A model generated the notes under the pieces. It was not told the origin of the DNA and made no database searches. It saw nothing but the letters and a program-made list of their open reading frames with translations. Both the position numbers and the translations under genes were made by a program. From Oceanithermus profundus DSM 14977 (GTDB lineage: Bacteria > Deinococcota > Deinococci > Deinococcales > Marinithermaceae), in NCBI RefSeq assembly GCF_000183745.1, contig NC_014761.1:496001-560000 (forward strand): DNA of 64,000 nt, written 5' to 3'. Shown in pieces: positions 1-4,938 of this stretch (positions within the stretch are counted from its first letter, which is position 1; every line of letters starts with the position of its first letter).

Positions 1-286
1 CCATCACGATGAGCAGCGGGATGGCCGTCCAGATGATCTCCATGCGGTCGTTGCCGTGCACCTGGGGCGGGAGCTCGTCGTCGCCCGGCTTGGCGCGGAA
101 CTTCCAGATCGTGTAGGCCAGCGCTCCGGCGACGACGCCGAAGATGATGACGGCGAAGATCAGCACCCACCAGAGCAGGCCGGTGATCTCCTGGTTTACC
201 GGGGCGTCCGAGAGAATCGTGACGTTGTGCGCCAAGGCGGCACCCGCCAGCGACAGGTAGCCCACGCTTAATAGCATTCGCGGCAT
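1..286 (-). CDS. coxB: Cytochrome c oxidase subunit II, N-terminal part (runs off the window)
   Basis: Only the first 95 residues are visible; the gene continues past the left edge. ATG at 286 follows a GGAGGAGA ribosome site. The translation shows a short hydrophobic leader, then one membrane helix (about residues 36-62, rich in W, V and I) and the start of a second after the motif EIIWTAIPLLIV. That motif is typical of the loop leading into helix 2 of oxidase subunit II. This subunit normally carries the CuA centre, which takes electrons from cytochrome c to subunit I; the CuA part lies outside the window. It is the second subunit-II-type gene in a row, directly downstream of the gene at 422-1411. 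Confidence 0.8.
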   Translation of the reverse strand, partial: MPRMLLSVGYLSLAGAALAHNVTILSDAPVNQEITGLLWWVLIFAVIIFGVVAGALAYTIWKFRAKPGDDELPPQVHGNDRMEIIWTAIPLLIVM

Positions 287-372
287 GGTCGTTCTCCTCC
301 GTGGCTAACTCGCCATATAGGGACAAAAGCCCTCATAAAACTGCGTACCAGCCTACCGCATTTCTCATGGCG

Positions 373-399
373 ATGCCATACCCCAAATGGGTATGGCAT
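373..399 (-). terminator. Hairpin between the two oxidase subunit II genes
   Basis: An exact 11-bp inverted repeat, ATGCCATACCC and GGGTATGGCAT around a 5-nt loop, lies just after the stop of the 422-1411 gene. No strong T-run follows on either strand, so it may be a weak terminator or an RNA processing/stability element separating two subunit genes of one transcript. Confidence 0.4.
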
Positions 400-421
400 T
401 ACCTTTGCCCGGGTCCAGGTT

Positions 422-1411
422 TCAGGGTTGGGGCAGTGCCGTAAAGTCGAAGCCTTCGACGCGCAGGCTTTCCAGGTAGGCGACGAGGGCGTTCAGGTCG
501 TCGTCCGAGAGCTGGGCGAAGGCGGGCATGCGCACGTCCGGCTTCAGGTCGGGTGCGGCGCGGATCCAGGTGCGCAGGTTGACGGGGGTGTTGGGCAGCG
601 AGGCCGCGCCCAGGGTGGTGCGGTTGCCGAACAGGGTCAGGTCCGGTCCCGCGGTGCCCGCCGCCTCGGTGCCGCGCACGGTGTGGCAGGAAGCGCAGAG
701 CGATCCGAAAAGTTCGGCGCCGCGCCGCAGCTCCGGGGTTGCCGGGGGCGGCGGGGTGAAGTTCGAAGCCGCGGTCAGGAAGCGGTCGAAGGTTTCGGGC
801 TCGAGCACGAGCACCCGCATCCGGTGCTGTCTGGCGCCGAGGCCGCACTGCTCGGTGCACAGGCCGGGGTAGTTCCCCGGCTTCTTGAAGCGGACCGTGG
901 CGCGGGTGTTCTGGCCGGGTATGGCCGAGGCCTTCAGCCCCACCTCGGGCACGCTGAGGGCGTGAAAGGCGTCGGTCGAGGTGAAGCGCAGCTCGACGGT
1001 CGCCCCCGCGGGGAGCACCAGCTCGTTGCTGAGCCGTACCGGGGTGCCGGCGTAGTCGAAGTCCCACCAGTAGCGGTGCGCCGTCACCTTGACGCCGAAG
1101 GCGGGCTTGCCGCCGGTCGAGAAGAGCTGGATCGCACTCTGGACGCCCAGGATGCCCACCACCGCGACGAGGATGATGGGGACCGCGAACCACACCGCGT
1201 CCAGGGCGTCGCCGCCCCGGCTGGCGCGCTTGCGGCCGTAGAGGAGCGCGCCAAGGATGATGGCCACCGACACCACGGCGAAGACGGCCACCCACAGCAA
1301 CAGGCGGCCGCTCTCGGTACCGGTGGGGTCGTCCGAGAAGGTGGTGGCCTGGTGGGCCCAGGCCAGGTTCAGCGCGAGCGGCGGTAAACCGTGGACGAGC
1401 GTTCGCTTCAC
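422..1411 (-). CDS. Cytochrome-c-fused oxidase subunit II with altered CuA ligands
   Basis: 329 residues with a GTG start one base after the ctaA/ctaB stop codon, so very likely co-transcribed. Two membrane helices (about 36-60 and 72-98) precede a cupredoxin domain, and a class I cytochrome c domain follows with CASCH at 239-243 and a likely axial Met at 295 in VRMPAF. This is the architecture of caa3-type subunit IIc. The CuA loop is unusual: His150, Cys185, Glu187 and Cys189 are present, but the position of the second His (Cys+4) is Ala193 and that of the Met (Cys+7) is His196. CuA may therefore be absent or rebuilt. The oxidase-subunit call is firm; CuA function is doubtful. Confidence 0.85.
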   Translation of the reverse strand: MKRTLVHGLPPLALNLAWAHQATTFSDDPTGTESGRLLLWVAVFAVVSVAIILGALLYGRKRASRGGDALDAVWFAVPIILVAVVGILGVQSAIQLFSTGGKPAFGVKVTAHRYWWDFDYAGTPVRLSNELVLPAGATVELRFTSTDAFHALSVPEVGLKASAIPGQNTRATVRFKKPGNYPGLCTEQCGLGARQHRMRVLVLEPETFDRFLTAASNFTPPPPATPELRRGAELFGSLCASCHTVRGTEAAGTAGPDLTLFGNRTTLGAASLPNTPVNLRTWIRAAPDLKPDVRMPAFAQLSDDDLNALVAYLESLRVEGFDFTALPQP

Positions 1412-1412
1412 G

Positions 1413-3257
1413 CTAGAAGTGTACGCTGCGGTCCACGGCCATGGCCAGGAACAGCAGCGCCAGGTAGGACATCGAGTAGAAGAACAGGCGGCGCGCCTGG
1501 GGGCGCTGGGGGTGCAGGTAGAGCATCAGGCTCTGGGCGAGCAGCACCAGGTTCAGGAAGCCCGCGGAGGCGGCGTAGATCCAGCCCATCTGCCCCAGCG
1601 TCAGCGGCATGATCGAGATCACCGCCGTCAGCACCGCGTAGAGCGCGATCTGGATCACCGTGACCCGGTCGCCGAGGACGACAGGCAGCATGGGGACGCC
1701 CACCCGGGCGTAGTCGTCCTTGATCAGCAGGGCCAGGGCCCAGAAGTGCACCGGGGTCCAGAAGAAGACGATCGCGAACAGGTACCAGGCGAGCAGGTTG
1801 AGGTCGCCGGTGACCGCGGCCCAGCCCACCAGCGGCGGGAAGGCGCCGGCCGCGCCGCCGATGACGATGTTGCTCCAGCTGCGGCGCTTGAGGTAGAGGG
1901 TGTAGATCAGGACGTAGTGCATCAGCCCCGCGAGCGAGAGCGTCGCCGCCAGCAGGTTGGCCCCCCACCAGAGCACCACGAAGGCGAAGGCGGCAAGCAG
2001 GAAGGCGAACTTGAGGGCGTCGGCCGACGAGATCCGGTTCTGCACCGTGGGCCGGCCCCGGGTGCGCTCCATCTTGGCGTCGATGTCGCGGTCGATGACC
2101 ATGTTGATGGCGTTGGCGGCGCCCGCCGAGGCGTACCCGCCCAGCAGCACGACCAGCAGCAGCTTCCAGCCGGGCCAGCCGCCGGCGGCGATGAAGAGGC
2201 CCGCCAGCGCGGTGAAGAGCAGCAGGCTGATGATGCGCGGCTTGGTCAGCGCGATGTAGTGGCGCACCGAGGCGCGCGCCCCGCCCTCGTGGGGCGAAGG
2301 CTGGTGCACCTCGGTTTGTTCGGCGGCCTGGATGCCGCTCGCCAGCGCGGCCGCGGCGAAGAGCACGAAGGCGATCCAGACGGCGTCGGCGCTGAGCAGG
2401 TGGAGCATCTGCAGCGCGACGGGGGTGTTCGAGAACATGTTCCAGAGCCCGATCAGGATCTGGACGCCGAAGAGGGTGACCAGCACGACCCCGAGCTGCC
2501 GCACCCGCGGCGAGGGGCGCAGGCGGCTGACCACGCCGGTCATCAGCAGGATGTAGATGCCCACCGAGACCGCGATCAGCGGGTGCAGCACCCGCAGTTG
2601 CACGAGGAAGTGGGCCGTGGGGGAGAGGTCCTGCTTCACGCCCTCCCAAAAGCTGGGCGCGCGGAAGAGGGTGTCGGCCAGCGCGGTCACCGCGCCGCTC
2701 GCGGCGAGGGTGAAGAAAGCGAGCACGGCGATCCCCAGGGCCCAGCCCACGGCCCCCTGGTTGCGGATGCGCAGCGGCGGCCCCCCCGACGCCCAGTAGG
2801 CGGTCAGCGCCATCGCCCCCAGCAGGGTGAGGGTGATCAGCAGGTGCACGGCCATGATGACGACGCGCGCCACCGAATCGTTGTAGGCCACCAGCTGGAA
2901 GAGGACGAGGCCGCCCCCCGCCAGGGTTTCGACGATCATGGCCCACAGCGTGAAGGTGACCCCGAAGTAGGCGGGGTGGTCCTTGGCGAAGATGCGCCGC
3001 CCCCAGAAGAAGAGCAGGATCACGCCCAGGAGCGCCAGGCCGCTGCTGATGCGATGGGAAAACTCGATGATCGTCTTGACGTGTTCGATCTCGGGCAGGA
3101 TCGCACCTTGGCAGGTGGGCCAGTGCTGGCCGCAGCCGTCGCCCGAGCCGGTGGCGCGGACGTAGGCGCCCCAGACGATGACGCCCAGGGTATAGACGAG
3201 CAAGCCCCACGCATAACGGGCAAACGCGAGCGGTTTCATATTCTTTCGGGCCTCCAT
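1413..3257 (-). CDS. ctaA/ctaB: Heme A synthase / protoheme IX farnesyltransferase fusion (CtaA-CtaB)
   Basis: 614 residues joining two membrane enzymes that make heme A for aa3/caa3 oxidases. Residues 1 to about 310 are CtaA/COX15-like: a CGQHWPTC pair (Cys42/Cys49) and helix histidines near 68, 138, 225 and 286. Residues from about 330 are CtaB (UbiA-type prenyltransferase), with [19 protein letters not shown] at 385-403 as the Asp-rich prenyl-diphosphate site. An acidic linker near 311-328 joins them. The fusion would make heme O and then oxidise it. The next gene is an oxidase subunit, which fits. Translation may start instead at Met7 (3239), which has GGAGG 11 nt upstream. Confidence 0.93.
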
Positions 3258-3314
3258 GGAGTCTCCACGCCCATTTTGAGCACTGGGCCTAGGGCAAACG
3301 TCCCTATTGGCGCC

Positions 3315-3344
3315 ATCTTACCCCGCCCGGCCCTTATCTGAAAA
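3315..3344 (-). promoter_or_regulatory. Candidate promoter for ctaA/ctaB
   Basis: On the minus strand TTTTCA (3344-3339) and TAAGAT (3320-3315) are 18 nt apart, 58 nt upstream of the first start codon. A 6-bp stem with arms GCCCTT and AAGGGC (3330-3348) overlaps it and could also end the pckA transcript. Confidence 0.35.
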
Positions 3345-3351
3345 GGGCGCC

Positions 3352-4938
3352 TCAGACCCGCGGTCCGGCGTTTCGCACCTCTTCGCCGGCGCCGTCGGCG
3401 TACTTGGCGAAGTTTTCCTGGAACATCCGGGCCAGCTTGCGGGCGGCCTCGTCGTAGGCTCCAGGATCGGGCCAGGTTTGTTTGGGGACGAGCAGTTCGT
3501 GGGGCACCCCAGGGGCCTCGGTGGGGACCTGGAAGCCGAAGATCGGGTCTTCGACGTAGGGAACGTCGTCGAGCTTGCCCTCGAGCGCCGCGCTGAGGAG
3601 CGCCCGGGTGTGCGCGAGCGCCATCCGCTTGCCCACGCCGTAGGGCCCGCCGGTCCAGCCGGTGTTTACCATCCAGACGCGGGGGCCGAACTTCTGGATC
3701 CGGTCGCGCAGCATCTCGGCGTAGCGCGCCGGGTGCAGCGGCAGGAAGGGCGCGCCGAAGCAGGCCGAGAAGGTGGCCACGGGCTCGGTGACGCCGCGTT
3801 CGGTGCCGGCTACCTTGGCGGTGTAGCCGCTGATGAAGTAGTACATCGCCTGCTCCGGGGTGAGCCGCGCGATCGGCGGCAGCACGCCGAAGGCGTCGGC
3901 CGAGAGGAAGAAGATGTTCTCGGGGTGGGGCCCCATGCTGCTGGTGACGACGTTGTCCAGGTGGGCGAGCGGGTAGGAGGAGCGGGTGTTCTCGGTCTTG
4001 GAACCGTCGTCGAACTCGGGCCTGCGGCTGCTCGGGTTCACCACGACGTTCTCGAGGATGCTTTCGAACATCATCGTGGCCCGGTAGACGAGCGGCTCGG
4101 ATTCGGGGGTGAGGTTAATCACCTTCGCGTAGCAGCCGCCTTCGAAGTTGAAGACGCCTTCTTCCGACCAGCCGTGTTCGTCGTCGCCGATCAAAGGGCG
4201 GTCGGGATCGGTGGAGAGGGTGGTCTTGCCCGTGCCCGAGAGGCCGAAGAAGATCGCGGCGTCGCCGCGGCGGCCCAGGTTGGCTGAGCAGTGCATCGAG
4301 AGCACGCCCTGCTTGGGCATCAGGTAGTTGAGCACCGAGAAGATCGACTTCTTGATCTCCCCGCCGTAGTGGGTGCCGCCGATGAGCACGATGCGCTTGG
4401 CGAAATGCACGAGCACGAAGACCTCGCTGCGGGTGCCGTCGCGCTCGGGCACCGCCTTGAAGCTGGGCGCGTGCACCACCGTGAACTCGGGCATGAAGGG
4501 TTCGATCTCGTCGTCGCGCTGGAAGCGCCGCGGCAGGATGAACATGTTGCGGGCGAAGTGAGCGTGCCAGGGGCTCTCGGTGATCACCCGCACGGCCAGG
4601 CGGTGCTTGGGGTTGGCGCCGGCGTAGAGGTCCTGTACGTAGAGGTCGCGCTCCGAAAGGTGCGCCGCCACGCGTTCGTACAGGTCGTCGAAGGCCTCGG
4701 GCGCGAAGGGCTGGTTGACCTCGCCCCACCAGATGTCCGCGTCGCTGCTGGGTTCGCGGACGATGAACTTGTCCCGCGGACTGCGTCCGGTGTAGGGGGT
4801 GGTGTCGACCACGAGCGGGCCCTTGTGGGCGAGCTGGCCCTGCTGTCTGGCCAGCGCGTGCTCGACCAGCACGGGGGTGGGGGTGTCCCAGAAAACCTGA
4901 CCCTTGGGGTGAATGCCGTGAACCCGTAAATCGCGCAT
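3352..4938 (-). CDS. pckA: Phosphoenolpyruvate carboxykinase (ATP)
   Basis: 528 residues, the usual length of ATP-dependent PEPCK. It converts oxaloacetate plus ATP to phosphoenolpyruvate, CO2 and ADP, the entry step of gluconeogenesis, in the cytosol. Visible are the kinase P-loop GLSGTGKTT (232-240), the metal-binding segment GDDEHGW (251-257), the substrate-loop segment [12 protein letters not shown] (47-58), and [12 protein letters not shown] containing the metal-site lysine. A GGGAGG ribosome site precedes the ATG. It stands alone between ctaA/ctaB and dedA on the same strand, with its own AT-richer leader containing TATAAA. Confidence 0.96.

Follow-up and report, generated by a model that had tools for sequence, protein, structure and literature searches.

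The oxidase locus and its second subunit II gene

The window, a stretch of 64,000 nucleotides, corresponds to positions 496001-560000 of the 2,439,291-base genome of Oceanithermus profundus DSM 14977 (G000). At its beginning, the minus strand carries a fused ctaA-ctaB gene, a gene for an atypical oxidase subunit II (here CoxII'), 137 bp of intergenic DNA, a canonical subunit II gene and a fused subunit I/III gene encoding CaaA. The features are as follows.

1413..3257, minus strand: CtaA-CtaB fusion (heme A synthase plus heme O synthase), directly upstream of CoxII' and ending one base before its start
1411..422 including the stop codon, minus strand: CoxII', 329 aa, GTG start, a paralogue of caa3 oxidase subunit II with a degenerate CuA site and a heme c
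1247..1303, minus strand: predicted transmembrane helix 1 of CoxII', residues 37-55 (hydropathy and model)
1142..1198, minus strand: predicted transmembrane helix 2 of CoxII', residues 72-90 (hydropathy and model), with Asp at the canonical K-path Glu position
962..964, minus strand: His150, the retained first CuA histidine of CoxII' (alignment)
818..859, minus strand: former CuA loop, C185-M198, CTEQCGLGARQHRM, with His changed to Ala193 and Met to His196 (alignments to canonical subunit II)
683..697, minus strand: heme c attachment motif C239-A-S-C242-H243 of CoxII' (domain match and alignment)
527..529, minus strand: Met295, at the position of the heme c axial ligand, conserved without exception in the CoxII' and canonical rows
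374..398, minus strand: perfect hairpin/dyad TGCCATACCC...GGGTATGGCA between CoxII' and canonical CoxII
316..325, minus strand: TGTCCCTATA element upstream of canonical CoxII (sequence)
1..286, minus strand: N-terminal part of the canonical CuA subunit II (340 aa in full, the rest lying beyond the window), followed by CaaA outside

The CuA signature of subunit II reads H-X34-C-X-E-X-C-X3-H-X2-M (PMC9145763). CoxII' keeps His150, 34 residues ahead of Cys185, together with Cys185, Glu187 and Cys189, and carries Ala193 and His196 in place of the signature His and Met. Its loop runs C185-T-E187-Q-C189-G-L-G-A193-R-Q-H196-R-M198-R-V, with Ala at Cys189+4, His at +7 and Met at +9, exactly as a preliminary description of this DNA had reported, without giving the strand or the canonical gene beside it. 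The canonical subunit II beside it has the loop CAELCGASHANM, in which every CuA ligand is present. Alignments of CoxII' to this neighbour (BLASTP) and to the Thermus thermophilus caa3 subunit 2yev_B (phmmer) are both gap-free across the loop; Ala193 and His196 are therefore substitutions, as had been proposed, and a loop insertion or realignment is ruled out. The same loop recurs in two further genomes of the genus, which excludes the sequencing error that had been named as a caveat; a frameshift is likewise ruled out by the orthologues and by purifying selection on the gene.

Domain content and classification of CoxII'

Domain analysis confirmed the earlier observation that the heme c domain is retained. 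The Cytochrom_C match (PF00034) scores 49 bits, and CoxII' has the features both of a c-type cytochrome and of the C-terminal heme of a caa3-type subunit II. The heme c ligands C239, C242, H243 and Met295 are invariant across the CoxII' and canonical proteins compared. The Pfam COX2 periplasmic domain (PF00116) was found at 45.9 bits against a cut-off of 22, and the orthologues tested also lie above this cut-off. The COX2_TM domain (PF02790) gave no match in CoxII' and was found in canonical P0001 and L101; two hydrophobic helices nevertheless persist in the hydropathy profile of CoxII'.

CoxII' stays below the cut-offs of the CoxB, CyoA and QoxA models. For NCBIfam TIGR02866, the CoxB equivalog with a cut-off of 147.7 bits, CoxII' scores 130.9 bits and its orthologues 124.0, 120.7 and 97.8, whereas canonical copies reach 225.9 and 252.2. 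Because it falls below this cut-off and its CuA signature is incomplete, CoxII', which is a homologue of CuA subunit II, should not be filed as a functional one. Nor is it a quinol oxidase subunit II: against the CyoA/QoxA cut-offs of 266.2/240.95 bits, P0002 scores 47.5/35.6 and the best CoxII' 60.0/48.3, and CoxII' contains the heme c domain that such subunits are defined as lacking.

The best match of CoxII' in both sequence and fold is 2yev chain B, with which it is collinear over residues 33-328 (E 2.4e-70) and whose fold its predicted structure reproduces (TM 0.75/0.77). Subunits of the bo3 and aa3-600 oxidases are also among the fold matches of the model. The loop is modelled with low confidence, equally so in a normal Thermus control, and structure prediction thus does not decide whether the site could hold copper.

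CoxII' is built in the same order as caa3 subunit II (CtaC/CaaB; PDB 2yev chain B, T. thermophilus): signal/membrane helices come first, then the cupredoxin domain, and heme c is C-terminal. It differs in the replacement of the CuA His and Met (window genus) or the loss of His, Cys, Cys and His (a sister genus, see below), in its diverged membrane domain, in its score under the TIGR02866 cut-off and in being a second copy beside a normal one. The quinol oxidase subunits CyoA and QoxA are, like CoxII', subunit II paralogues that have lost CuA; unlike them, CoxII' bears heme c, scores far under their cut-offs and lacks its own subunit I gene.

Distribution and gene order in relatives

Relatives were sought in the family and the order, where several genomes are incomplete MAGs. 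Within the window genus, CoxII' occurs in G000, G002 (92% identity), G006 (80%) and G003 (95%, a fragment ending ahead of the loop). The orthologue loops in G002 and G006 are CTEQCGLGAKQHRMRV, so that the genus consensus is CTEQCGLGA[R/K]QHRMRV wherever covered. In a sister genus (g3, Thermaceae MAGs), the gene after ctaAB has lost four of the five side-chain CuA ligands with heme c intact: His became Tyr/Phe, Cys became Gln/Glu, Cys became Val and His became Thr, leaving only the Met and the backbone Glu. At the canonical positions H161, C196, E198, C200, H204 and M207, the window genus accordingly has H, C, E, C, A, H, and the sister genus has Y/F, Q/E, E, V, T, M. Among named-genome relatives outside these two genera, the CuA loop is complete wherever readable, as judged by two short peptide patterns that are not exhaustive.

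In single-copy genera (Thermus- and Meiothermus-like, and G001 of the same family), the order is ctaAB, normal CoxII, CaaA. The sister genus and G006 share the order PEP carboxykinase, ctaAB, CoxII', methyltransferase-like gene, aldo/keto reductase; three of these genomes show the methyltransferase-like gene. G000 has the CoxII-CaaA pair between CoxII' and the methyltransferase-like gene. In the sister genus, the normal CoxII-CaaA pair lies on contigs other than that of CoxII'. CoxII' starts 1-7 bases after ctaAB and adjoins it in all ten ctaAB-bearing genomes of the two genera, and the two remain together even in the sister genus and G006, where the locus is without the CoxII-CaaA pair. By the gene order in the sister genus, G006 and G000, CoxII' thus sits in the ancestral ctaAB-CoxII slot, where it was retained when its subunit I partner moved away. 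The caaA gene is absent from G003, G006 and G013, which may reflect an assembly gap.

The gene just 3' of the oxidase locus in both genera encodes a small membrane methyltransferase-like (ICMT-like) protein (L004:6265-6828; L081:6406-6918; L083:540-1058; L090, about 2900-3600). One member of the window genus, G004 (98% complete), is without ctaAB, CoxII, CoxII' and CaaA, the heme A oxidase set having apparently been lost as a block.

Phylogeny and selective constraint

In a tree built without the CuA columns, the CoxII' proteins of both genera form one clade (support 98/98 with the long f2 row, 99/97 without it), and a second clade unites the canonical copies of both genera (99/94 and 98/90). 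The AU test rejected an origin of the window-genus CoxII' from its own canonical CoxII (p 0.021); with the tree, this rules out a recent duplication inside the window genus. The two-genus clade and the AU result indicate that the duplication predates the split of the two genera, though not beyond doubt, as long branches meet in the CoxII' clade.

CoxII' is under purifying selection but evolves faster than the canonical copy (dN/dS 0.18-0.42 versus 0.07-0.13). Its divergence is uneven along the protein. Identity between CoxII' and canonical proteins is 17-36/35-45/39-54% in the membrane, cupredoxin and cytochrome domains, whereas canonical pairs are evenly conserved (62/68/65% and 59/57/54%). 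Among canonical-invariant residues, both CoxII' groups keep 2/20 in the membrane domain, 11/26 in the cupredoxin domain and 14/21 in the cytochrome domain; 12/20 of the membrane-domain residues are gone from both groups, and the window-genus cytochrome domain alone retains 20/21.

Within each genus, by comparison, the three CoxII' domains are constrained about equally. This similar constraint implies that the scaffold still matters and is not a mere tether, so that the cupredoxin and membrane parts have a function or a partner specific to them. Glu187, which in subunit II serves as the Mg-site/CuA-carbonyl Glu, never varies in CoxII', and the K-path carboxylate is Asp or Glu; both hint at continued contact with a subunit I.

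Intergenic elements

The perfect dyad at 374-398 is kept in G002, where one stem pair is compensated on both sides from T-A to C-G, and it looks like a repressor operator or an attenuator. Its core occurs only once in the genome, the near matches fall within or beside non-copper genes, and no dyad of this type was found at the csoR/copZ locus. On these three grounds a CsoR copper operator was rejected, and a copper switch is unsupported.

An element resembling TGTCCCTATA precedes the canonical CoxII start by 34-39 bp in both genera; in the sister genus the distance is 34 bp, and three genomes have the exact 10-mer. This conservation suggests that CoxII-CaaA forms its own transcription unit, with the element as a probable separate promoter. 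A sigma-70 promoter scan of positions 200-3400 returned no match.

Other oxidases and cytochromes in the genome

The genome contains three heme-copper subunit I genes: caaA, which adjoins canonical CoxII; a ba3 gene, which adjoins its own subunit II; and a third, NorB-like gene. The last adjoins a 221-aa gene that encodes a cytochrome c domain and lies near a 558-aa protein whose N-terminal part has a cytochrome c motif; this locus is probably a NOR cluster. All three thus stand beside their own partner gene, and no orphan subunit I that could partner CoxII' was found in the genome. The genome also encodes about a dozen other cytochrome c domains.

Proposed role of CoxII' and alternative explanations

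Taken together, CoxII' is very probably an old caa3 subunit II paralogue residing in the ctaAB slot, in which CuA is disabled but the cupredoxin fold, both membrane helices and heme c are kept, its neighbour being the catalytic subunit II. It has probably become either an electron carrier tethered to the membrane or a helper of the heme A oxidases, no longer a working oxidase subunit. The preliminary description had also suggested that CoxII' might pass electrons through heme alone or use a rearranged copper site. The loss of CuA ligation with retention of heme c stands and is conserved among relatives; the implied role as electron-entry subunit is unsupported, because a normal CuA subunit II lies next door and CoxII' is diverged, fails the curated cut-off and is without most of the invariant membrane-domain residues.

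As to function, we tentatively favor, with somewhat less than even confidence, the reading that CoxII' works as a membrane-anchored cytochrome c alongside the heme A oxidases. Electrons would reach its heme c from the cytochrome c pool of the periplasm or from the bc1 complex and move on to another cytochrome c, for example the one in the true caa3 subunit II. Its cupredoxin domain would serve only as a rigid stalk, and CoxII' would not be the entry subunit of a pathway leading from heme c via CuA to heme a. We infer this relay with only moderate support, from the tandem subunit II genes of which one is canonical, from the lack of an orphan subunit I and from the invariant heme c ligands, together with the lost CuA ligands, the uneven divergence of the domains, the purifying selection, the two-genus clade and the lasting association with ctaAB. 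Against it, an extra carrier is not obviously needed given the dozen or so other cytochrome c domains, and the equal within-genus constraint of the domains and the retained Glu187 and K-path carboxylate hint at more than a stalk.

Those retained residues, which sit at the subunit I interface in a real subunit II, bear also on the rather unlikely possibility that CoxII' is an assembly partner, holding its place on nascent subunit I (or on CtaAB) during insertion of heme A and CuB until swapped for the true subunit II. The placement of CoxII' 1-7 bases after ctaAB even where CoxII-CaaA is gone fits such a role, as does its absence from the most complete genome that lacks ctaAB (98%). However, the ctaAB linkage is inherited, with a normal CoxII in the same slot in Thermus and G001; more than half of the invariant membrane-domain residues (12/20) have disappeared from both CoxII' groups; and an intact heme c would be superfluous for a placeholder. 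A CuA-free subunit II serving the same subunit I, or acting in a quinol-oxidase-like form, for instance under copper shortage, is quite unlikely in our estimation. The fold and domain order match caa3 subunit II, bo3/aa3-600 subunits appear among the fold matches, and the sister-genus loop GVQTEYVGPATDKM resembles, in general terms, those of CuA-less quinol oxidase subunits. Yet established distance limits on electron transfer suggest that, in the absence of CuA, the two hemes c and a would be too far apart for a fast step, which makes direct transfer unlikely. The membrane docking residues have diverged, the CyoA/QoxA scores are 60 and 48 bits against 266 and 241, heme c is foreign to quinol oxidase subunit II, and no copper-responsive operator emerged, the dyad before CoxII having no counterpart at the csoR/copZ locus.

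We regard as similarly doubtful a rearranged copper site in the window genus, where Cys185, Cys189, His150 and the new His196 would coordinate one or two coppers in an arrangement other than CuA and so still relay electrons or carry copper. His150, both Cys, Glu187 and His196 are kept in 3/3 orthologues covering them, and, when the three domains are set side by side in the wider comparison, dN is lowest in the cupredoxin part (0.09-0.095). But the loop is conserved across three close genomes only, which is weak evidence, and its model is of low confidence in CoxII' and control alike; moreover, the sister-genus orthologues are without these ligands, only the Met remaining, which argues that the function shared by the CoxII' proteins does not need copper. 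A combined version, in which CoxII' is an alternative entry subunit of the same fused subunit I/III and its heme c feeds heme a either directly or, in the window genus, through a new Cys2-His2 copper site, we consider improbable; if true, subunit I/III could run without CuA, and the caa3 oxidase would have an electron entry that can be switched to save copper. Decay into a pseudogene, or an annotation or sequencing artefact, would account for the lost ligands and the faster evolution, but it is very improbable: the frame is open and the loop kept across separate genomes, dN/dS is 0.18-0.42, the heme c motif is invariant, and CoxII' was kept after the oxidase pair had left the locus.

The favored role as a membrane-anchored cytochrome c has parallels. 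Paracoccus CycM/c552 and Bacillus CccA share with CoxII' the proposed membrane-tethered heme c mode. Their architecture is unrelated, however, the tether of CoxII' being a whole subunit II scaffold with a dead cupredoxin domain. Bacillus CccA is a membrane-anchored cytochrome c (PMC9145763). In the open-access literature, we found no earlier report of a CuA-less subunit II with heme c. The stepwise loss of CuA, two ligands in one genus and four in its sister, with heme c kept in a lineage-specific copy, shows an oxidase subunit becoming something different beside its intact original, and the CoxII' series offers a natural test of what subunit II needs for binding subunit I and of whether heme c can function without CuA. 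Automatic annotation would probably name both copies cytochrome c oxidase subunit II and mask the difference.

Further subunit II variants in relatives

A very diverged CuA-less subunit II homologue with heme c and a deleted CuA loop was found in another family of the order (G014, L060:3641-4615). It adjoins neither ctaAB nor caaA, and the same genome also has a normal caa3 operon; given its long branch, it may or may not belong to the same family as CoxII'. In G001, a second oxidase operon follows directly after the caa3 operon in opposite orientation (L088:11116-15011); it encodes a normal CuA subunit II of its own that lacks heme c. In two other genomes, the Glu of CxExC is replaced by Ala (CLALC; L061, G016) or Ile (CNILC; L062, G017) in CuA loops that are otherwise normal.
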